This document shows, one piece after another, positions 1,392 through 21,957 of a stretch of DNA of 21,957 nucleotides. The stretch is from positions 1 through 21,957 of IMG/VR virus record IMGVR_UViG_3300035698_005893; one strand, given 5' to 3'. A model generated the notes under the pieces. It was not told the origin of the DNA. It made no database searches and worked only from the letters and a program-made list of their open reading frames with translations. The translations under genes and the position numbers were made by a program. The DNA comes from a virus. Positions within the stretch are counted from its first letter, which is position 1. Every line of letters begins with the position of its first letter.

Positions 1392-1421
1392 TTGTCTTGG
1401 TTAGGGAAGTATACTGGCGAT

Positions 1422-1426
1422 AAGGA
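1422..1426 (+). promoter_or_regulatory. AAGGA ribosome site favouring the TerL start at 1431
   Basis: AAGGA lies 4 bases before ATG 1431. The TTG at 1392 directly follows the previous stop codon and has no upstream ribosome site, so ATG 1431 is the more likely start. Confidence 0.6.
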
Positions 1427-1430
1427 ATTG

Positions 1431-3833
1431 ATGGATGAAGGTCCAGAGATTTCTAGCATGGAACTTCCCTACAACCGGGAATTACGAAAAGAAATTAAGA
1501 AGATATCCACTGGATATGTACCAAGGCCATTACAAGCGGTCATCCATTCGCGACTGAAACGATTCAACGTTCTCGTTTGCCATCGTCGGTTTGGGAAAAC
1601 TCTCCTCGTTATCAATGAGATGATTAACAAGGGGATCCAAAATCAGAGACATAATCCTCAATACGCCTATATAGCACCTACCTACAAACAAGCGAAGATG
1701 ATTGCTTGGGAATACATTGTAGATTTCACATCAGAAATACCAGGCGTGAAAGTAAATAAGTCAGAACTATCGGTCGAAATACTGCGTGAAGGGATTAAGA
1801 ATTCTTCAGGTGGTTGGGCGAAGAAACCTGACAAGATCAAGTTCATGCTTCTCGGTGCAGAGAATCCAGATTCTATTCGTGGTATTTACCTCGATGGTGC
1901 TGTTCTTGATGAGTACGCTCAATGCGATCCTGTTATTTGGGGTGAGATTGTTCGTCCTGCTTTAGCAGACCGGAAAGGGTGGGCGATTTTCATCGGGACT
2001 CCAAAAGGTCAGAATCATTTTTATAGACGGCTTGAGAAAGCAGATTCCCTCCCAGAAACTTGGTTCACCGCTATTTATAAAGCTTCTGAAACCGGAGTCC
2101 TACCACAAGACGAATTAGAAGATATGATGTCTGATATGGAACCGGAGGAAATAGAGCAAGAGCTTGAATGCTTCCCTGCTGGGACTAAGATATCTACTTC
2201 TAAAGGACATAAGAATATTGAGGACATCCTAGTAGGGGATGTAGTCCTGACTCACAAAACTAGATGGCGCCCCGTAACTGAAACTAAGAGTAAGTTGTAT
2301 AAGGGTGATTTTATACTGATTGATTGTTTCGGAGGAGATTCTTCTAATATAAAAGTCACGCCTAAGCACCCATTCCTAACCCATGATAAGAAATCCCAGA
2401 AAAGAACTTGGGTAATGGCAAAGGATTTAAAAGAAGGGGATTACTTAGTTAGCCCTAAAATGAATGTAGGGCCTAGTATACTGACCGAGAACTTTATTAA
2501 ACTCCTGGCATGGTATATTTGTGAGGGTTCTGTTACACAAAACTCCATAAGTATATCCCTTAATGGCGGTGACTCTTCCGAAGTAAAAGAAGTTTCAGAC
2601 TTAATCACTTCTTTAGGCTACAAATACAAATGGCACCAAGGTAGGAAAGGATCTAAGTCAGGGAGTCTCATAATAGGCAGTACTTCCCTTGGGGATACAC
2701 TAGTTTCTCTTTGCGGATCAGGTGCTAAAAATAAACGAATCCCTTTTGACCTTATAGGCGGGCATCTACAGGAATTTTTCGATACCTTAATAAAAGGGGA
2801 TGGATGTAGACATGAATTGGAGAGTGGCTCGATACGTACAAAATACTCAACAATATGTAAATCTTTGGCCTATGACGTAGCTCAACTGGCAGCCCATCTA
2901 GGTAGAAGAAGTTCAATAACTATACGTCCAGCTAAAATAGGTATTATAGAAGGCAGGGAAGTTAATTGTTCAGAAAGCTACTGTTTAAATATCTCAGAAG
3001 GCGGCTACCCTAAGAACTTGGCCAAACATAAGGAAGTGTATCCTTCCAAGTACGGGATGGCTTACAAGATCAAATCAGTCGGGGTTGAGCAAGATACCCA
3101 GAGGGTTTTTAACTTTTCAGTAAAAGAAGACGAAAGTTACGTTGCGAGTGGGAAGGCAGTACATAATTGCTCCTTCCACGCTGCCGTTAGAGGATCTTAC
3201 TATGGTGAAGCCCTACGTGAAATGGAAGAAGGTGGCGGCGATCAGATCGGTTACGTTCCCTGGAATCCAAGGTACCCGGTCGATACCCATTGGGATATTG
3301 GTATTGGAGATTCCTGTGGTATTGTTTTCCGACAAAAAGTCCATGGTATTTGGCATTACATTGATTATATTGAATCGAATGGTAAAGGTGTCGATTGGTT
3401 TATCAAAGAACTTGAAAGGAAACCGTACTCTTACGGTCGGCATGTATGGCCACATGATGGTAAGAATAGGGATTTTATAACCGGACAGACCAGACTCGAA
3501 GTAGTTAGGGAATTAAAACCTGGCTGGGAATGGGAAGTCCAAACTAAACAGTCGGTCGATGATGGTATCCAAGCCGTACGTACCCGATTGAAGACTTCTA
3601 GGTTTGATGCTCAGAAATGTGCGAGATTGCTTGACTGTCTTAAGAATTATCAACGAGAATGGGATTCAAAGCTAATGTTATTCCGTAATAAGCCAAAACA
3701 TGATTGGGCTTCCCATGGTGCAGATGCTTTCAGATACGATGCCTTAGATGACAAAGATACTAAGGAACTGAAGATGCGCAGGGATAACTTGCCACGAACG
3801 GCCAATAGCGATTATAATGAATTAGAGTATTGA
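1431..3833 (+). CDS. Terminase large subunit (TerL) precursor with intein
   Basis: An 800-aa precursor of the ATP-driven packaging motor and nuclease. Without the intein (residues 247-579) the mature protein is 467 aa, a normal TerL size. Numbering from ATG 1431: Walker A is CHRRFGKT at 50-57, Walker B is GAVLDEYA around 156-163 with Asp160-Glu161, and the coupling motif IGTPKG starts near 188. After the intein comes the RNase H-like nuclease: a first acidic pair in HWDIGIGD (Asp622, Asp627), and a last acidic residue in SHGADAFRY near the C-terminus, the characteristic end of this family. The intein sits between Glu246 and Cys580, in the conserved ECSF segment linking ATPase and nuclease. 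The start is set by AAGGA at 1422; the frame is also open from TTG 1392, adding 13 residues. The protein is expected to dock on the portal and be inactive until spliced. Confidence 0.95.
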   Translation: MDEGPEISSMELPYNRELRKEIKKISTGYVPRPLQAVIHSRLKRFNVLVCHRRFGKTLLVINEMINKGIQNQRHNPQYAYIAPTYKQAKMIAWEYIVDFTSEIPGVKVNKSELSVEILREGIKNSSGGWAKKPDKIKFMLLGAENPDSIRGIYLDGAVLDEYAQCDPVIWGEIVRPALADRKGWAIFIGTPKGQNHFYRRLEKADSLPETWFTAIYKASETGVLPQDELEDMMSDMEPEEIEQELECFPAGTKISTSKGHKNIEDILVGDVVLTHKTRWRPVTETKSKLYKGDFILIDCFGGDSSNIKVTPKHPFLTHDKKSQKRTWVMAKDLKEGDYLVSPKMNVGPSILTENFIKLLAWYICEGSVTQNSISISLNGGDSSEVKEVSDLITSLGYKYKWHQGRKGSKSGSLIIGSTSLGDTLVSLCGSGAKNKRIPFDLIGGHLQEFFDTLIKGDGCRHELESGSIRTKYSTICKSLAYDVAQLAAHLGRRSSITIRPAKIGIIEGREVNCSESYCLNISEGGYPKNLAKHKEVYPSKYGMAYKIKSVGVEQDTQRVFNFSVKEDESYVASGKAVHNCSFHAAVRGSYYGEALREMEEGGGDQIGYVPWNPRYPVDTHWDIGIGDSCGIVFRQKVHGIWHYIDYIESNGKGVDWFIKELERKPYSYGRHVWPHDGKNRDFITGQTRLEVVRELKPGWEWEVQTKQSVDDGIQAVRTRLKTSRFDAQKCARLLDCLKNYQREWDSKLMLFRNKPKHDWASHGADAFRYDALDDKDTKELKMRRDNLPRTANSDYNELEY
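2169..3167 (+). mobile_element. In-frame intein with LAGLIDADG homing endonuclease in TerL
   Basis: 333 residues, Cys1 to Asn333. All splicing blocks are visible. Block A starts CFPAGTKI. Block B is VTPKHPFLT with Thr64 and His67. Block F is FNFSVKEDESYVA. Block G is AVHN followed by extein Cys, giving a class 1 intein with penultimate His. The insert between blocks B and F carries two LAGLIDADG helices, LLAWYICEG (112-120) and FFDTLIKGDG (203-212), each with its acidic residue (Glu119, Asp211), so a dodecapeptide (DOD) endonuclease looks intact. Splicing would join ELE to CSF of TerL. The endonuclease is expected to cut intein-less terL alleles and so spread by homing. The insertion point, next to a conserved Cys in an essential protein, is typical for inteins. 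Confidence 0.95.
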
Positions 3834-9457: not shown

Positions 9458-11742
9458 TGACAAAATTTACGACTGCCTACAATAACTTTTCTGGTGGAAA
9501 GGTTTCTGAGAAATTTAAGGGTCGATTCGATCAACCTACCTACCAAAATGCTTTAGAAGAAATGCATAATACGTTCCCCGATAAGATAGGTGGGGCATTT
9601 AAAAGAACTGGAACCATCCAGATACATGACATAACTTCTACTTTGGCATCAATTTCAGGAAACGCGTTTCGACCTAGTTATAGGGGTATCCCGTTTCAAG
9701 CTGGTGATGGTGAAAGCTACATAGTCTATGTCACAAAACACACAATAACTATGGCAAATTTTGCCACCTATTTACATATTTTCCATAATGATAGAACTAA
9801 AGCGGCCAACATTTATGGGGCTTCAGAAATAACTGCTAGGGATAGAGGATACACATGGACTCCAAACACAACTACCCTAAGTACGTCTGGGGGGAATCAC
9901 GCTTGGAAGTATTGCCAGGTAGGTGATTTACTTTTCCTAACACATTCATCAGGAGAGCAACGTCCTTTAGTCCTATCTAGAACATCTATCGATTCTTTTG
10001 AACTAAATTATGTTGATCAAGAAACTACCAGTAATGGTGGGATGGGACAGGATTTACTAGTCCCTTTCAGTGATGCAAATACCACCGGAACTCAATTGAC
10101 TCTTGTCGGGTCTACCCTTACAGCAAGTGCTGCTACTTTTGAAAACAGTATGTCCATATCTCAGTCACTTTTTACGGTGGAAACTGCAGGAGCTACGAGA
10201 GTACTTATCGTAACGGCTTACGCCTCTGCGACCTCTGTGACAGTTGCCAATCTTCTAGGTTCTGGGAATATAACTGCGACTGATGACTGGAGACAATCCC
10301 TATGGAGAAACCCTACTTACGTGGGTGGGTTGGTTGTCGGATATGGTTGGCCCACATCAGTAGCCTACCAAAATCAAAAACTAATATGGGGTGGAAACTT
10401 AAAATTTCCTGATACTATATGGGCTTCATTAACTGGAAATTTATTCCACTTGAATGCCACTAGACTTACTCAAGATGCAACCACCGACGTTTCAGGTTCC
10501 AACTTCTTTGGGGATGCTGTCCTCGGTGTTGATCCTTTCTCTCTTCCAGTAGGTTCCACGGAATCAAACGCCATACAATGGATGACAGGTGGTAGAGTTC
10601 TGACAATTGGGACCACGGGCGGTGAGTACTTGATTAAAAATATTGGTCTGGATACAATCGCTATAGAAGCCAATTCTAACTATGGTTCTTCCTCGTATCA
10701 AGCTATCCGTATGGGTAAAGATATCGTATTCGCAGGGGCCACACGAAGAAACTTTAGAACTTACAGATATTCAGAAGATAACGGATCATGGGTTTCAGAT
10801 GATTTATCTGTCAAATTAGACGATTTCAATGATAATAATTATACAAGTAGTCCTTATTTTAAACATATCCTGGACTTCACATGGAACTCTGAGAACAAAC
10901 TACTATTCGTAGCAATGAGTAATACTGTGTACGTATTTGGGAATGACCCAGAATTCGGTATAAATGGTTGGTCCACGCTAGATTTAGGTGTTGAAGCAGG
11001 CCATACGACTTCTGTAATATCGATCACGAGTCTTAAGAATACTGAAGGGGATAGTGAAGAAGTCTTCATGTTGGTTAGACGAAATGATGGGTCTGCTGAT
11101 TCCTACTTTATTGAAAAATTAACTATCCCTTACTACGAATCAAGCTTGAAATTAGCGCCCTACGTATACTCATCCACAACTCGTTACTACGATAGTATGA
11201 ATAACATGCCTAGGTTTTTGGACTTAGCCGTGCATGACCAGGCAAACGGTTCTGGGATTGTCACTGGTTTGGATGTTGCTTTCATCGGGAGAGTAGTTAC
11301 GGCCACATATTTCAGCACAACCACCTTTGGTTATGTTGATGATGTTGATATCATAACAGATGGTGCTGGTGGGTCTAAGCTAGATCATACGTTTGCTGCC
11401 TCGGAATACGTCATATTCGGTTACAAATACAGTGCTAATATTAAGACATTACCTCCAGAATCCGGAGGGCAATTCGGTACATCTATGGGCGATATTAAGC
11501 AGATCCATGAATCGTACCTAAAACTATACAGAACTAAGAACTTCTCGATAGGGTCTATCGATAAAAGAAGTGGAGCTGACTTAAACTTTGAAGATATCGA
11601 GTACGATGACTTATATACCTCTGATCAAAGAATCCAGTTAATGGATAATCCTGATACAGATGGACAGATTGTAATCAGGAGTACTACCCCAACACCTCTA
11701 AACATACTGGCATTGGTGAGTAAGGGTATTTCTTATGATTAA
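9457..11742 (+). CDS. Tail tubular protein B (nozzle), T7 gp12-like
   Basis: 761 aa, near the T7 gp12 length (about 794). It forms the tail nozzle through which DNA leaves the virion. The N-terminus has the family signature: AYNNFSGGKVSEKFKGRFD (7-25), then NTFPDKIGGAFKRTGT. Most of the protein is predicted beta propeller-like, rich in Thr/Ser and aromatic turns. A conserved region follows mid-protein (WASLTGNLFHLN, IQWMTGGRVLTIGTTGGEYLI) and the C-terminus returns to the ring base (LKLYRTKNFSIGS, PTPLNILALVSKGISYD). The start overlaps the previous stop, so translation is coupled. Confidence 0.93.
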   Translation: MTKFTTAYNNFSGGKVSEKFKGRFDQPTYQNALEEMHNTFPDKIGGAFKRTGTIQIHDITSTLASISGNAFRPSYRGIPFQAGDGESYIVYVTKHTITMANFATYLHIFHNDRTKAANIYGASEITARDRGYTWTPNTTTLSTSGGNHAWKYCQVGDLLFLTHSSGEQRPLVLSRTSIDSFELNYVDQETTSNGGMGQDLLVPFSDANTTGTQLTLVGSTLTASAATFENSMSISQSLFTVETAGATRVLIVTAYASATSVTVANLLGSGNITATDDWRQSLWRNPTYVGGLVVGYGWPTSVAYQNQKLIWGGNLKFPDTIWASLTGNLFHLNATRLTQDATTDVSGSNFFGDAVLGVDPFSLPVGSTESNAIQWMTGGRVLTIGTTGGEYLIKNIGLDTIAIEANSNYGSSSYQAIRMGKDIVFAGATRRNFRTYRYSEDNGSWVSDDLSVKLDDFNDNNYTSSPYFKHILDFTWNSENKLLFVAMSNTVYVFGNDPEFGINGWSTLDLGVEAGHTTSVISITSLKNTEGDSEEVFMLVRRNDGSADSYFIEKLTIPYYESSLKLAPYVYSSTTRYYDSMNNMPRFLDLAVHDQANGSGIVTGLDVAFIGRVVTATYFSTTTFGYVDDVDIITDGAGGSKLDHTFAASEYVIFGYKYSANIKTLPPESGGQFGTSMGDIKQIHESYLKLYRTKNFSIGSIDKRSGADLNFEDIEYDDLYTSDQRIQLMDNPDTDGQIVIRSTTPTPLNILALVSKGISYD

Positions 11743-15657: not shown

Positions 15658-18035
15658 TGGCCAAAACACATGACGAATGTTCATTAATTGTTAAAGAGAG
15701 TTTAACCCAATTTTTTGGGAAGAAGGATCTTGATAAAAGACTTAAAAAGTTTGATGAACTTGTGTTAGATATCGTACAAAAAGCTGAGAAAGAGGGCGTT
15801 TCTCCTGAGATAGCACTACAAAATGCTACCAAGGATATGACCCTAAAGATCAGACAAAAAGCGAGACAGAATTATCTTAATCAAGAAGCTTATAACAGGG
15901 CCAAAACTCAAGTAGACCAATTCAAAGACAAAGATATGTGGAGAGGGATTCAATCCTTAATCGCTATTGAAGGTGGTGTTAAATACACCGCTGAAACTGC
16001 TAGTCTTTATGGCAGAAGGGAAGCTTTACAAAATATATCAATGGGTCTTTTGGTCCGTAACCTAGACAATGCTCAACTTAAAAAGTTCTCGTCCGGTGAA
16101 TATGATCTTGAGATAAAGAAAATACTATCAGGTGAGTTAGATGAGGTTGCCATGGGTAAGATGGATCCTGATCTTATCGCTATCGCTACCAATGCCAGAA
16201 AAATGCAGGATCATTTACATCAAGTAAAGAATCAAGCTGGTCTGGATGTTGGTTATACGAAAAATAGAATCGGGAAGCAATTCCATAGTGGACCAGGAAT
16301 GATCAAATATGGCGCACAAGAATGGAAATCTCTAGCAAGAGAGAGATTTGACTTTGATAAAATGGGTCTAAAAACTGAAGAGGATATTGTAAAAAGACTT
16401 GATGATATGTGGGATAAAAGAACATCTAATGTAGGCCATAAGTTTATACAAGGTGTTTCTGATGATTTGGATGAAATCACAATACAATCATCCACTAAGA
16501 ACATGGGGACTAGTAGATCTGTCCACTTCCTAGACGCTGAATCAGCCCATATTTACGATCAAGAGATAAACGGTGGTCAAAACCTTATGACTTCACTCAT
16601 GACTGAAGTAGAGAGGGATTCTGGTAAGGTGGCCGCGGTAGAATTACTTGGCCCAAACTTCTCAGCGAACTGGACCAAAATTATGTCTGAAGTAGAGATG
16701 CCAGCGTACCGTCGTAGTAGTCTGGACAGTCAATTCAATAATACAGTTTATGGTTCTAAAGGGAAGGGAGTTGGTTTCTTTCCTGGTACTGTAAACACCC
16801 TCAAGAAAATATCAAATATGACTATGCTCGGACCAAAAACCCTAGCAGCTACCATGACAGATATGGCGTATGGTCCTATGATTCTATCAGCGGATACAGG
16901 GCAAAATATGCTCCAAGCCGCAGTAACAATTCTTTCATCAGTCCTAAAGACTTTCCCAAACCAAAAACAAGCTGCGATACAGGGATCAGTATTCCTTCAA
17001 GATATGCTGGATTCTACATTCAATGCTAACTTCCATGAGAATGGGTTAGTTACAAATTGGTTTGATAAAACACATGATTTTTATATGAAGGCCACTGGTC
17101 TTCCTATGCAATCAAGAATGTTCAAGACCGCGAATGCAAACGCATTCAACCACATAATGTTCAATAATAAAGGAACTGCTTTCGATGCTTTGGACAGAGG
17201 GACTAGAAATCTCTTTGACAGATATGGTATTGGGGCTGATGAGTGGAGTATCTTAAGTAAAAATGAAGGATCTAACCTCCCTGATGGTAGGGGTGTGCTA
17301 GATGTATTGAAGATATTAGATACCGATTTAGCTGAATTTAGTGGAACTGCTACTCAAAAGAGATTCAAAAGAAACGAATTAGCTACAAAGTATAATGCTA
17401 TGTTGGTGGAGTTTGCTGAATCTGGTTCACCTACACCTACTTCCCAAACTATGCATTGGGTAGAACAGTCTGACCCTAATACACCTTTAGGTATGGCAGC
17501 AAGATTAGCAGGGCAATTCAAATCCTTCGCTTTTTCTATGCCGAAAACAATTATGAGAATAAAGGGAGCTGACCCTATAAACATGAAGTCAGGAACTAGA
17601 TTGGCCGCAGCTGTAATGGCAGCTACTACCTTAAGGTATGGAGTGGATTATCTCCGAGCAATTTATGACGGTAAAGAACCGCCTGATGCTACGGATGGGA
17701 AAGTCTGGGCGCAAATGGCAGCAAAGTCCGGTGTTGGCGGAATTTACGCTGATATGTTGTCAGTGGATTACTCAACTAATATCTGGAGAGATCCAGTAAA
17801 AGACATGGCCGGTCCCGGTGCTAGAGTATTTACTGATGCAGTTAAGGGAACTATAGAAGCTGGAAAGTACGTGTATAGCTCACTTGACGGAGATTCGAGA
17901 GAAGCCGACAAGCAAATGGGCAAGATAATAAAGCGCCTAGAAAAGAACACCGCATTACCCTTCATCCAAAACAAACTTAACAAAGAGATCTATGATCATA
18001 TACACTTATTAATGAATACAGGAGCACGACGATGA
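15657..18035 (+). CDS. Large internal virion/ejection protein (gp16-like part 2)
   Basis: 792 aa. The N-terminal 110 residues are charged and helical (FGKKDLDKRLKKFDELVLDIV). A mid region shows the pattern I associate with large podovirus ejection proteins: RKMQDHLHQVKNQAGLDVGY, then YGAQEWKSLARERFDFDKMG and RLDDMWDKRTSNVGHKF (about 180-265). Later segments are Ala/Met/Gly-rich (TLAATMTDMAYGPMILSAD, GTRLAAAVMAATTLRYGVDY) and may contact membrane. No catalytic motif of a lysozyme or transglycosylase is seen. The start overlaps the previous stop (TAATG), and its TGA stop overlaps the tail fibre ATG. The assignment rests on position and general pattern. Confidence 0.75.
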   Translation: MAKTHDECSLIVKESLTQFFGKKDLDKRLKKFDELVLDIVQKAEKEGVSPEIALQNATKDMTLKIRQKARQNYLNQEAYNRAKTQVDQFKDKDMWRGIQSLIAIEGGVKYTAETASLYGRREALQNISMGLLVRNLDNAQLKKFSSGEYDLEIKKILSGELDEVAMGKMDPDLIAIATNARKMQDHLHQVKNQAGLDVGYTKNRIGKQFHSGPGMIKYGAQEWKSLARERFDFDKMGLKTEEDIVKRLDDMWDKRTSNVGHKFIQGVSDDLDEITIQSSTKNMGTSRSVHFLDAESAHIYDQEINGGQNLMTSLMTEVERDSGKVAAVELLGPNFSANWTKIMSEVEMPAYRRSSLDSQFNNTVYGSKGKGVGFFPGTVNTLKKISNMTMLGPKTLAATMTDMAYGPMILSADTGQNMLQAAVTILSSVLKTFPNQKQAAIQGSVFLQDMLDSTFNANFHENGLVTNWFDKTHDFYMKATGLPMQSRMFKTANANAFNHIMFNNKGTAFDALDRGTRNLFDRYGIGADEWSILSKNEGSNLPDGRGVLDVLKILDTDLAEFSGTATQKRFKRNELATKYNAMLVEFAESGSPTPTSQTMHWVEQSDPNTPLGMAARLAGQFKSFAFSMPKTIMRIKGADPINMKSGTRLAAAVMAATTLRYGVDYLRAIYDGKEPPDATDGKVWAQMAAKSGVGGIYADMLSVDYSTNIWRDPVKDMAGPGARVFTDAVKGTIEAGKYVYSSLDGDSREADKQMGKIIKRLEKNTALPFIQNKLNKEIYDHIHLLMNTGARR

Positions 18036-19243
18036 GTATTGCCGATTTAGATACCAGTATAAAGTACGCCGGAGATGGTGCGATAGTTGATTTCGCTCTT
18101 AACTTCGCTTACAAATCTGGTGAAGTTACAAATATTAAAGTTATTAAAAGGGATACAACTGCTTCCCCTCCAACTGAGACAGCTCAAACTGCTCCTACTC
18201 ATTGGGCTTTTGATAACGCTACTAACCCTACAAAAATAACTTATGCAGTAGCACCTTTGGCCACTGACGAAATATTGATTTATAGAGAAACAGTTATCAA
18301 CCAGGAAACAAACTTTCCTACCGCTGATCAACTTACTGAAGATCAAACTGACCGATTAACCCTAATGCTTCAAGAGGTTAACGCTAAATTAGATAGAGCA
18401 TTGTTGGCCCCAATATCATCCGATAATCTACCTACCGCACTTCCAGAACCGGAAGATGGTTTATACTTAGGTTGGAATGGTACTGATCTTGAAAACCTAA
18501 CTGCAGTAGCAGGAGCGACCGGACCGACTGGTGCCACTGGTCCTGCAGGAGCTATGGGAACGACTGGTAATACAGGAGCGACCGGAGCTGCTGGTACAAA
18601 TGGTGGCGACGGAGAGGATGGTTTAATCACAGCGATTGCTTCTCAAGGAGAGGCTGAAGCTGGGACAAATAATACTAAGGCCATGACTCCTCTTCGTACT
18701 GAGCAGGCAATTGCTAATAGATTACTAACTTACTACACCCAAACACTTATAGATGCTGCTCAATTAGCACAAGATGCTTTGATTGTAGATGCTAGACAAA
18801 GAATCCAAGTAGTAGAAGATAACTTAGACATAAACCAATTCTCAGGAACTCAAGCAATTCAAAATGCCGAAGCGACTGGGATAGCTTTAGAAGGGGCCGA
18901 AGCACTTTCCGCCGAAGCTCCTAACTATGGAGATCCGCTTTCACGTAACAACACAGGGACAACGTTTGCTAGAATTGTATGTCTAGTAAACCGAGTGGAT
19001 GATGCGGAAACTCGTTTCGTACAAGTTACCATAGTAATGCATTATATAGGTTCGACATGGTTTGTTGGAAGGGAATCTACCGTTGTTCTCAACGATGGAA
19101 ACCCCGATGGTCTTGTCTTCACCGTGGCCACGGATGGAAACGGTGTAGGCTTGGTTTCATATACTTCAGACAATATGGCCGGAGGAAATGAGTCAGGAAC
19201 GATTACATGGTTAGGAAAAGAAATACCAAATATAACTAGTTAG
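18032..19243 (+). CDS. Tail fibre with T7 gp17-like N-terminus and collagen-like segment
   Basis: 403 aa. Residues 1-130 match the particle-binding N-domain of T7-type fibres (SIKYAGDGAIVDFALNFAYK, VIKRDTT, ILIYRETVINQETNF, ADQLTEDQTDRLTLMLQEV). A collagen-like Gly-X-Y segment at 161-197 should form a trimeric rod. The shared fibre motif AEAGTNNTKAMTPLRTEQAI follows (about residues 208-227), then a helix and a C-terminal beta domain (DAETRFVQVTIVMHYIGSTW, TITWLGKEI) with a possible receptor-binding role. It is shorter than T7 gp17 (about 553). The overlap with the previous gene (ATGA) couples translation. It may act as an adaptor on which the next, longer protein is mounted. Confidence 0.88.
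   Translation: MSIADLDTSIKYAGDGAIVDFALNFAYKSGEVTNIKVIKRDTTASPPTETAQTAPTHWAFDNATNPTKITYAVAPLATDEILIYRETVINQETNFPTADQLTEDQTDRLTLMLQEVNAKLDRALLAPISSDNLPTALPEPEDGLYLGWNGTDLENLTAVAGATGPTGATGPAGAMGTTGNTGATGAAGTNGGDGEDGLITAIASQGEAEAGTNNTKAMTPLRTEQAIANRLLTYYTQTLIDAAQLAQDALIVDARQRIQVVEDNLDINQFSGTQAIQNAEATGIALEGAEALSAEAPNYGDPLSRNNTGTTFARIVCLVNRVDDAETRFVQVTIVMHYIGSTWFVGRESTVVLNDGNPDGLVFTVATDGNGVGLVSYTSDNMAGGNESGTITWLGKEIPNITS
18512..18622 (+). repeat. Collagen-like Gly-X-Y coding repeat in the fibre
   Basis: Twelve consecutive Gly-X-Y triplets plus a closing Gly (residues 161-197, beginning GATGPTGATGPAGAMG), rich in Thr, Ala and Pro. At the DNA level CAGGAGCGACCGGA-type blocks recur. Such segments trimerise fibres and vary in length between relatives. 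Confidence 0.9.
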
Positions 19244-19254
19244 ACGGAGATAAC

Positions 19255-21957
19255 ATGCAAAAAATGATAATTTTATTACTCTTCACCTTGGTCATAGTCG
19301 GTCCTGTCGAAGCAAAATACAAGATATTCGAGGATCCTATTTCTGTAGGTAGCCCACCAGCAAAGCCGGAAACTGGGCTTATGTTCTCTTTAATATCTAC
19401 GGTGAAGGCTTCGAAACCTTGCCCAGATATGACTGAAGTTCAAAGGGATGCTTTAAGCCCTAAAGTCACAGGATCTTGTATATACAACTTAACTGCTTTC
19501 GAGACTCAGTTTTATAACGGGGTAATTTGGATTTCTACAGGGGGTGGAGCTGTACTGTCTATCTGGACTACAGGTGTTTCTTATGGAATAGGAGATTTTG
19601 TCTATACCGCTGGTGATTTTAAGTTGTGGGTAGCGAATACTTCCCACACGGCCGGGGCAACATTCGCCGGAGACATTGCAAATTGGGATGAAGCTAGTTC
19701 AACCGAAGTAGTAGACCTGGCAACGGCAGATGTTACGGGGATTTTACCTATTGCAAATGGTGGTACAAATAGTTCAGCGGCGCTTACTAGTGATTTAGTA
19801 ATGCGATCTAACGGAACTTCCGTTATAGAATCTAGTGTTACTATAGATGCTTCTGGGAATATGGGAAGTTTAGGGACTTTAAATACACATACAATCCCAG
19901 CAGGGACAGGAACTTTCGCCTTAACTACTGATACGGCACCAGCAGCGAATACAGTCATATTTCAAGCAAGAGTTGATGAAGTTGGAGGTGTAGTTCTTGG
20001 GGATGTTGTTTATATAAATGGAGTAACCGGAAACCAGATGGAGGCAAGTAAGGCCATCAATAATGACTTTACTAAGGTTGAAGCAATTGCGGTGGCCACT
20101 GAAGTTGGTGCCAACAATGCCACGATAGGATTTCAAAACTTTGGAGAGTTATCAGGTTTGGATACTTCTTCTTATACGGAAGGGGATGTTTTATACCTTG
20201 ACTCTACTTCAGGGCAATTAACTGCGACGCATCCTTCTGGAATCCAGGGTGTCATGGAAGTGGGTAGAGTAGTTAGAGTCCACGCTAGTTTAGGTACTAT
20301 CTTTATAAATATAGAACGCCAAACAATTGCTGACTCTCACGATGGGATTGAGAGATTCCAACTAGTAAATTCTAATGCAGGGACTTCAGCTAGTGCAGCA
20401 TACACTATTGTTAATGATGCCTCTCATAGAGTGTCTTTATCTTTAACAGGAAGTAACTATAGTGCGGTGGCAGGAATAGCCGATTCACTAGTACTATACA
20501 ATGAAGGTTATGGTAGAACTGTAAATGCAGTAGATGGTAACTTTGGTTTCTCTTGGTGGACAGATGTGAGTGACTCTCACGACTTAAGTGCTACCGAAAA
20601 AATGAGCTTAAGCGCGGCCGGTATATTGTCCGTTTCAAATGATATTCTATTGGCCGGTACTGGACAACTAGATCTTCCAGTAGGGACAACTGCTCAAAGA
20701 AGTGGTTCTCCTGATTCTGGTATGCTTAGATTTAATTCCGACACAGTATCTTTTGAAGGACACAATGGTACTACCTGGGGTTCTCTCGGTGCTGGTGGTG
20801 GTGGTGGAATTAATTATTTACAAGATACGAAAGACAGTGATTTTGAAATTGATGTTGGGAATTGGGTTGCCTTTAATGATGGCGCGGTTGCTGTTCCCGT
20901 TGATGGTACTGGTGGTACTGCAGTATGGACTTGTACCCAAAATACAACAACACCAATAAGAGAAACAGGTGATCTTAAAGCACTCGCGGCCGCCAGCGAT
21001 ATGCAAGGGGAAGGCTGCTCAGTTGATTTCGATGTAGATCTAGGAATGCAAGCGCAGAAATTAACAGGTTCATTCTGGTATGATTTTTCTGATGCTGGGT
21101 TTAATGATGATGAAGTAAAAGTCTTTATTTACGATAAAACAAATACAAATATTATCCGAGTAAACGGTGAAGATTTAAAAGGTGGAAATGGGATTCATTA
21201 CTTCCAATTCCAAACAGCAAGTGATTCAACTTCATACCGACTAATTGTAATGCAAACTGATGCTAGTAACACTACTGGATTTTCAGCTTATCTAGATCAG
21301 GTAGTTGTTGGACCTACTAACTTAGCCTTCGGTACAATTGTTGGTGATTGGGAATCCTTTACTCCGGCACTAACTAACGTAACCATAGGAAATGGTACTA
21401 TATTTGGAAAAAGTCGTAGGGTAGGAGATTCTTTAGAGATGCAAGTTACCTTTACCATGGGGACTACTTCCAGTATTTCAGGGACTGTACTAATAGGTTA
21501 TCCTACAGGTATAACAATGGATACTGCAAAATCAGCTATTTCGACTCAAAACTTTGGATATGCTTATTTAGAAGATAATGGTACAGCCGTAAATAGGATA
21601 GGATCACAAGTAAGGGCGAGCGCAGATTCAGTTAATTTTGTTGCTGAAGGAGCGGGTCAAGTTAATGCTACAGCTCCTTTTACATGGGCTACATCAGATA
21701 AAATATCTTATACTGTAACTATACCTGTAGTAGGTTGGTCATCTAACACTCAAATGTCAGAAGATCTTGGCGGAAGAGAAGTTACTCTAAAAGCAGAAGG
21801 GAATGCAGGACAAACTGTAACAGCATCAGCAACAGATATACCTTTTATAGCCACAAAAGACACAACAGCTTCTTGGGACGGAGATCAATTTACTGCTCCA
21901 GAGACAGGTGAGTATTTAGTATCAGGGGAAGTTATATACACTGTAGCAGGTACTAAT
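19255..21957 (+). CDS. Long fibre-like protein with signal peptide, partial at window end
   Basis: 901 codons are open and no stop occurs before the window ends. GGAG lies 5 bases before ATG. Residues 1-20 form a Sec-type signal peptide: a short Met-Gln-Lys start, hydrophobic MIILLLFTLVIVG, and VEA before Lys21. After it comes a region with Cys56 and Cys75. Then fibre-type modules: DVTGILPIANGGTNS (160-174), a GDVVYINGVTGN module (about 239-355), GTTAQRSGSPDSGMLRFNSD with a Gly-rich hinge, a carbohydrate-binding-like jelly roll (about 523-687, from DFEIDVGNW to YLDQVVVGP, with Cys560 and Cys588), and a WESFTPALT...RRVGDSLEM module from 699. The C-terminus begins a C1q/TNF-like domain (FTAPETGEYLVSG). 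It is probably a receptor-binding or surface protein; its role and site of action are open. Confidence 0.88.
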   Translation, partial: MQKMIILLLFTLVIVGPVEAKYKIFEDPISVGSPPAKPETGLMFSLISTVKASKPCPDMTEVQRDALSPKVTGSCIYNLTAFETQFYNGVIWISTGGGAVLSIWTTGVSYGIGDFVYTAGDFKLWVANTSHTAGATFAGDIANWDEASSTEVVDLATADVTGILPIANGGTNSSAALTSDLVMRSNGTSVIESSVTIDASGNMGSLGTLNTHTIPAGTGTFALTTDTAPAANTVIFQARVDEVGGVVLGDVVYINGVTGNQMEASKAINNDFTKVEAIAVATEVGANNATIGFQNFGELSGLDTSSYTEGDVLYLDSTSGQLTATHPSGIQGVMEVGRVVRVHASLGTIFINIERQTIADSHDGIERFQLVNSNAGTSASAAYTIVNDASHRVSLSLTGSNYSAVAGIADSLVLYNEGYGRTVNAVDGNFGFSWWTDVSDSHDLSATEKMSLSAAGILSVSNDILLAGTGQLDLPVGTTAQRSGSPDSGMLRFNSDTVSFEGHNGTTWGSLGAGGGGGINYLQDTKDSDFEIDVGNWVAFNDGAVAVPVDGTGGTAVWTCTQNTTTPIRETGDLKALAAASDMQGEGCSVDFDVDLGMQAQKLTGSFWYDFSDAGFNDDEVKVFIYDKTNTNIIRVNGEDLKGGNGIHYFQFQTASDSTSYRLIVMQTDASNTTGFSAYLDQVVVGPTNLAFGTIVGDWESFTPALTNVTIGNGTIFGKSRRVGDSLEMQVTFTMGTTSSISGTVLIGYPTGITMDTAKSAISTQNFGYAYLEDNGTAVNRIGSQVRASADSVNFVAEGAGQVNATAPFTWATSDKISYTVTIPVVGWSSNTQMSEDLGGREVTLKAEGNAGQTVTASATDIPFIATKDTTASWDGDQFTAPETGEYLVSGEVIYTVAGTN

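Follow-up and report, generated by a model that had tools for sequence, protein, structure and literature searches.

We found that the last gene of the window, a 21,957-base IMG/VR virus record that covers the late region of a podovirus fragment, encodes a phage fibre-like protein which, judging from its sequence, is very probably moved out of the cytoplasm and stabilised by disulfide bonds. The simplest account of the signal peptide of this fibre, the signal peptide of a small partner protein encoded behind related fibres, and the cysteine pairs is export to an oxidising compartment, which we regard as likely. The core of the original prediction, an exported fibre-like protein with cysteine pairs, is well supported by a signal peptide conserved among relatives, by the partner's own signal peptide, and by a cysteine pair that tracks the signal peptide. 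The accepted view is that dsDNA phages produce and attach their tail fibres inside the cytoplasm, and under the terms tried the open literature yielded no account of a phage virion with a Sec-exported tail fibre. If true, such export of a receptor-binding-type fibre, recurrent and coupled to a partner, would imply either a new assembly route, with fibres mounted after lysis and disulfides in the tail, or a class of exported phage adhesins or receptor blockers; the combination of signal peptide, fibre tip, and signal-peptide partner provides a signature for finding more cases.

The window carries a set of virion genes (listed below with the features of the fibre gene), of which the portal protein shows up to 44% identity to the HTVC010P group of pelagiphages and the internal virion protein 21–24% identity to its counterpart in that group. 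The terminase large subunit gene contains an intein with Hint/splicing and LAGLIDADG-type domains. The fibre gene is encoded in the tail module beside the virion genes, in the window as in podo- and siphovirus-like relatives, and it starts directly 3' of a T7-like fibre gene, as originally described. It runs past the end of the record, and its nearest complete relatives are 1001–1568 aa long.

Features of the window and of the signal-peptide fibre gene (positions in the 21,957-base record)
Feature	Position	Strand	Basis or remark
Terminase with intein	1392–3833		Hint/splicing and LAGLIDADG-type domains
Portal			PHROG 332
Tail protein			PHROG 376
Internal virion protein			PHROG 684
T7-gp17-type fibre/adaptor, 403 aa, with collagen-like GXY stretch	18032–19243	+	No signal-peptide score
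Shine-Dalgarno region, GACGGAG before ATG	19240–19254	+	Same GACGGAG before ATG in relative G001
Signal-peptide fibre gene, 901 codons present, 3' end past record end	19255–21957	+	
Sec-type signal peptide MQKMIILLLFTLVIVGPVEA, predicted cleavage after A20	19255–19314	+	Rule-based scorer
TT..QRDAI-type fibre module with cysteine pair C56/C75	19372–19539	+	
W..YG.G.FVY...D.K.W.A....AGATF.GDIANWDE module, putative carbohydrate-binding (CBM5/12-like)	19552–19698	+	Alignment
Beta-sandwich (jelly-roll-like) domain with pair C560/C588	20803–21324	+	Beta-rich model
C1q-like region: first domain about 21343–21760, second from about 21850, incomplete at window end	21343–21957	+	

The N-terminus of the fibre (MQKMIILLLFTLVIVGPVEA) has a lysine, a long hydrophobic core, and V-E-A followed by K-Y, and thus shows the n-region charge, hydrophobic core, and small residues at −3/−1 of a Sec signal peptide. 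Signal peptides were called with a rule-based scorer rather than SignalP, and its scores were bimodal; among the 17 genes of the window only the fibre gene scored. The predicted signal peptide ending in VEA at residue 20 was confirmed by a strong score, an ATG preceded by a Shine-Dalgarno sequence, and a predicted VEA|KY cleavage site, and the only cysteines of the protein are the four that had been named (56, 75, 560, and 588). A lipoprotein was ruled out by the absence of a lipobox, and a frameshift fusion with the upstream gene was ruled out because the fibre frame opens only five codons before the ATG. Of the two domains originally proposed, the C1q-like one was recovered by profile matches to C1q and cerebellin chains (best 6e-11), by Pfam C1q in the complete relatives, and by Foldseek C1q matches for the model of a relative (target TM-score about 0.8), while the jelly-roll is supported indirectly, by a beta-rich model of moderate confidence. 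The predicted model of the N-terminal half was too poor in quality for fold assignment. Within this half, one module looks CBM5/12-like and may bind carbohydrate, and a CBM_5_12 match in a relative (L050) was weak and below the cutoff.

We searched for relatives with the portal and the fibre N-terminus and recovered G001 (38.6 kb, with a portal 93% identical to that of the window), G009 (a 31 kb contig), and the L027/L035 phage. In each of these, a T7-type fibre gene is followed by a fibre with a differing, equally clear signal peptide and K-Y. Conservation of the signal peptide among phages that share this gene order, a check that the original prediction had proposed, is borne out, and a Shine-Dalgarno sequence accompanies it in G001, G009, and L035. 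The T7-gp17-type fibre kept beside the signal-peptide fibre is 82%, 70%, and 59% identical in G001, L035, and G009, respectively. A more distant homologue was found at the same gene position in the complete podovirus MW202898 from Manatee Spring (32% identity over the tip); its N-terminus is unrelated to that of the window fibre, yet it is a signal peptide with AAGGAG upstream. The signal peptides vary in sequence and length, while their hydrophobic character and the mature start persist, as AKY.IF in one class and AKTLKVD in another, and the Shine-Dalgarno sequence was properly spaced in every inspected locus. Random mutants kept the signal peptide in 29% of cases; its retention in one pair of relatives is, taken alone, a weak sign of selection. 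The tip itself is 57% identical between the window and G001, compared with 75–93% for most other proteins of these phages. In the G001 phage, we also identified by eye HNH-type homing endonuclease-like ORFs (L024:7725-8192, 10072-10563, and 17028-17729).

With a profile of the tip we recovered 115 related loci from viral contigs and retained 80 of them, applying one start-choosing rule throughout. Sixty-eight fibres with homologous tips and without a signal peptide served as a natural control. Seventeen loci, including the window, MW202898, L033, and near-identical copies, scored 3.8–5.1 as signal peptides, and L051 scored from a start slightly further in; the remaining N-termini of the tip family were non-scoring except for the marginal L056 (2.8), which leaves almost nothing between the two sets. 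The second class, with a signal peptide followed by AKTLKVD, adds a dozen more loci on siphovirus-like contigs, to give about 20 distinct signal-peptide fibres on podo- and siphovirus-like contigs, from a scattered set of uncultured bacterial viruses. Other long genes of these phages rarely score; of 401 further long ORFs taken as background, 21 scored, and several of the 21 were lipoproteins or copies of the fibres themselves. Relatives without the hydrophobic start, the kind of evidence against export that had been foreseen, do exist, but only outside the immediate clade, and their N-termini are entirely different, not a later start of the same one. On the tip tree, 9 of 13 signal-peptide fibres group in a single supported clade that includes both podo- and siphovirus contigs, and the others stand apart; five changes of signal-peptide state were counted, of which two are forced, against a mean of 12.2 after shuffling, and, as most signal-peptide fibres belong to one tip clade, statistics on the two classes are not independent. 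One further fibre-like gene (L097:5531-6502, TTNYNLNKPGDRDRNYG...) has a strong signal peptide and immediately precedes the gene of an ordinary tip-family fibre that has none.

The cysteine pairs follow the same division. Of the 13 signal-peptide fibres, 6 carry the jelly-roll pair C560/C588, which all 68 ordinary fibres lack; its cysteines never occur singly, and the pair requires at least two changes on the tip tree, one of them in the long-branched L125, whose placement is unsure. The pair C56/C75 is found in all full QRDAI-type modules of signal-peptide fibres and otherwise only in L082, for which no fibre start was assigned and whose partner has a signal peptide; the same module has no cysteine in ordinary phage fibres or in an exported Aureispira protein. 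Total cysteine content did not differ between the fibre classes (p=0.5) and was rejected as an indicator of export. The tree offers too few independent pairs for covariation to reach significance, so the strength of the case lies in the pairing and in the agreement of three separate traits. In L100, at the 5' end of a contig, a fibre with no assigned start has the C560/C588-type pair; a signal peptide is predicted for it if the rule holds.

The third trait is the partner, a small protein (SWGKxERW...EYTI..TDITAEV) that is encoded directly behind the fibre in G001, L035, L038, L041, L125, L153, and L161 and has a signal peptide of its own. The window record ends before any partner gene of its own could appear, and the search behind the fibre genes of MW202898, G009, and several other loci yielded no partner. 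With the signal-peptide fibres drawn mostly from one tip clade, the partner has a signal peptide in all seven clear cases behind signal-peptide fibres and in none of 16 behind ordinary fibres (Fisher 4e-6); when the doubtful L050, a signal-peptide fibre with a possible partner lacking a signal peptide, is counted, the table becomes 7-1-0-16 (Fisher 2e-5). When the partners are aligned, the signal peptide stands as an extra N-terminal segment ahead of the aligned first strand, and a Cys69/Cys86 pair is invariant in five aligned signal-peptide partners. Several ordinary partners match the “tail fiber assembly” family PHROG 4912, and one also matches Phage_tail_APC (PF16778), while the signal-peptide partners gave no match to these models. 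The matches fall in a C-terminal half that is missing from the exported partners, which share only the N-terminal domain, and we can therefore only infer a chaperone role for them. The partner fold was modelled well (pLDDT 87), with no confident match in PDB or BFVD. The L035/L027 phage encodes, behind the fibre and partner genes, yet another protein with a signal peptide, the third (280 aa, structural-looking; L027:11419-12258).

Ordinary jelly-roll/C1q fibres of tailed phages have homologous tips, the same position at the end of the tail module, and a homologous small downstream gene (PHROG 4912, PF16778), but neither gene carries a signal peptide, and both C560/C588 and C56/C75 are absent. 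In branched T7-like receptor-binding systems, a T7-gp17-type anchor gene is followed by a second fibre gene, the order seen in the window, but in the known systems all parts are cytoplasmic and are mounted before lysis. Receptor blockers of the T5 Llp type are likewise exported to the envelope during infection, but are small phage lipoproteins and not fibres of the tail module. On sequence grounds, we file the window fibre with the tail fibres, as a probably exported form.

These comparisons bear on what the fibre does. Its place, tip family, partner family, and tip divergence, which resembles that of receptor-binding proteins, lead us to prefer, tentatively, a receptor-binding fibre that would mature in the periplasm and join virions at lysis. 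Sequence comparison establishes the signal peptide and its conservation, its coupling to a signal peptide on the partner gene, and the covariation of the cysteine pair; we infer the export, the disulfides, the trimers, the chaperone role of the partner, and the docking at lysis, and the following route is proposed. A homotrimeric, C1q-tipped fibre would be made late in infection and carried into the periplasm by the Sec machinery of the host, where its signal peptide would be removed and disulfides would lock it, probably with help in maturation from the small co-exported partner. Most likely still the receptor-binding protein of the phage, it would wait there until freed by the lysis genes encoded next door, and then join the tails of released virions. 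In podo- and siphovirus contigs the fibre gene does close the tail module, with lysis-type transmembrane and lipoprotein genes coming next, and among the uses originally proposed, addition to the virion at release is favoured by the tail-module position and by a partner that resembles fibre-assembly proteins. Virion assembly might then be split between compartments, with the cytoplasm producing the capsid and tail and the periplasm the disulfide-bonded fibre and its exported helper, and the two sets would meet only at lysis; this wider picture is a more tentative one. To our knowledge, no tailed phage has been described in which a fibre docks onto virions after lysis.

A protein exported to mask receptors or to promote adhesion is nearly as likely as the periplasm-matured fibre. 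Such a non-virion effector might mask receptors, exclude superinfection, keep progeny off debris, or serve as an adhesin, and it is a somewhat less probable reading; both signal peptides and the cysteine pairs would suit it, and the separate T7-type fibre gene (18032–19243) could supply the virion fibre. Exported phage-like fibres also exist in bacteria, namely the Bdellovibrio MAT proteins (PMC10769870) and the Aureispira protein WP_264793655.1 (Bacteroidota, “tail fiber domain-containing”). The latter resembles the phage fibre in having a signal peptide followed by a QRDAI-type module, but it is bacterial, its module is without the cysteine pair, and its gene adjoins one for a T9SS-sorted protein, with no partner gene behind it. 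Against an effector, ordinary tail fibres occupy the same position and have tips and partners of the same families, no route across the outer membrane before lysis is apparent, and no N-terminal module is common to all classes, unlike a surface anchor.

It is improbable that the hydrophobic segment stays uncleaved and anchors the fibre to the tail or to a membrane. A hydrophobic helix was predicted, with low confidence, for residues 2–19 of the L035 relative, but the AxA-type cleavage motifs followed by conserved K-Y or K-T, the cysteine pairs, and the gain of the same kind of start by an unrelated neighbouring protein all speak against such an anchor. Still less probable is the reading that the fibre belongs to the Bdellovibrio MAT adhesins and that a phage of a predatory bacterium carries it to widen the prey range of its host. 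MAT proteins likewise join a signal peptide to phage-like trimeric fibres with diverse tips, but they are bacterial and in all 21 the signal peptide is followed by one shared beta-rich domain of about 130 aa (PMC10769870), whereas the fibres described here are phage late genes with N-terminal modules that differ between classes and with an exported partner; the MATs were compared by description, and searches of solved structures in the PDB returned no MAT chain. That translation merely begins further in is hardly credible, as nothing in its support was found, the Shine-Dalgarno sequences are well placed at the inspected loci, about 20 distinct loci carry a signal peptide, and the partner shows the parallel pattern.

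The only match in a genome was L034 / G010:C79 in the Bacteroidia MAG CPBay_Spr15L08_66, apparently an entire 38,442-base phage contig that was binned in error and is related to the phage of the window. Assignment of a Bacteroidia host from this match was rejected, since the match is the phage contig of the bin, its translation signals differ from those of the MAG, and the partner gene is absent elsewhere: Shine-Dalgarno sequences precede 8 of 14 and 6 of 11 ORFs in the phages versus 1 of 32 MAG genes, and none of the 295 other Bacteroidota genomes among the 296 sampled has the partner gene. The neighbouring small lipoproteins resemble outer spanins, which suggests a diderm host.
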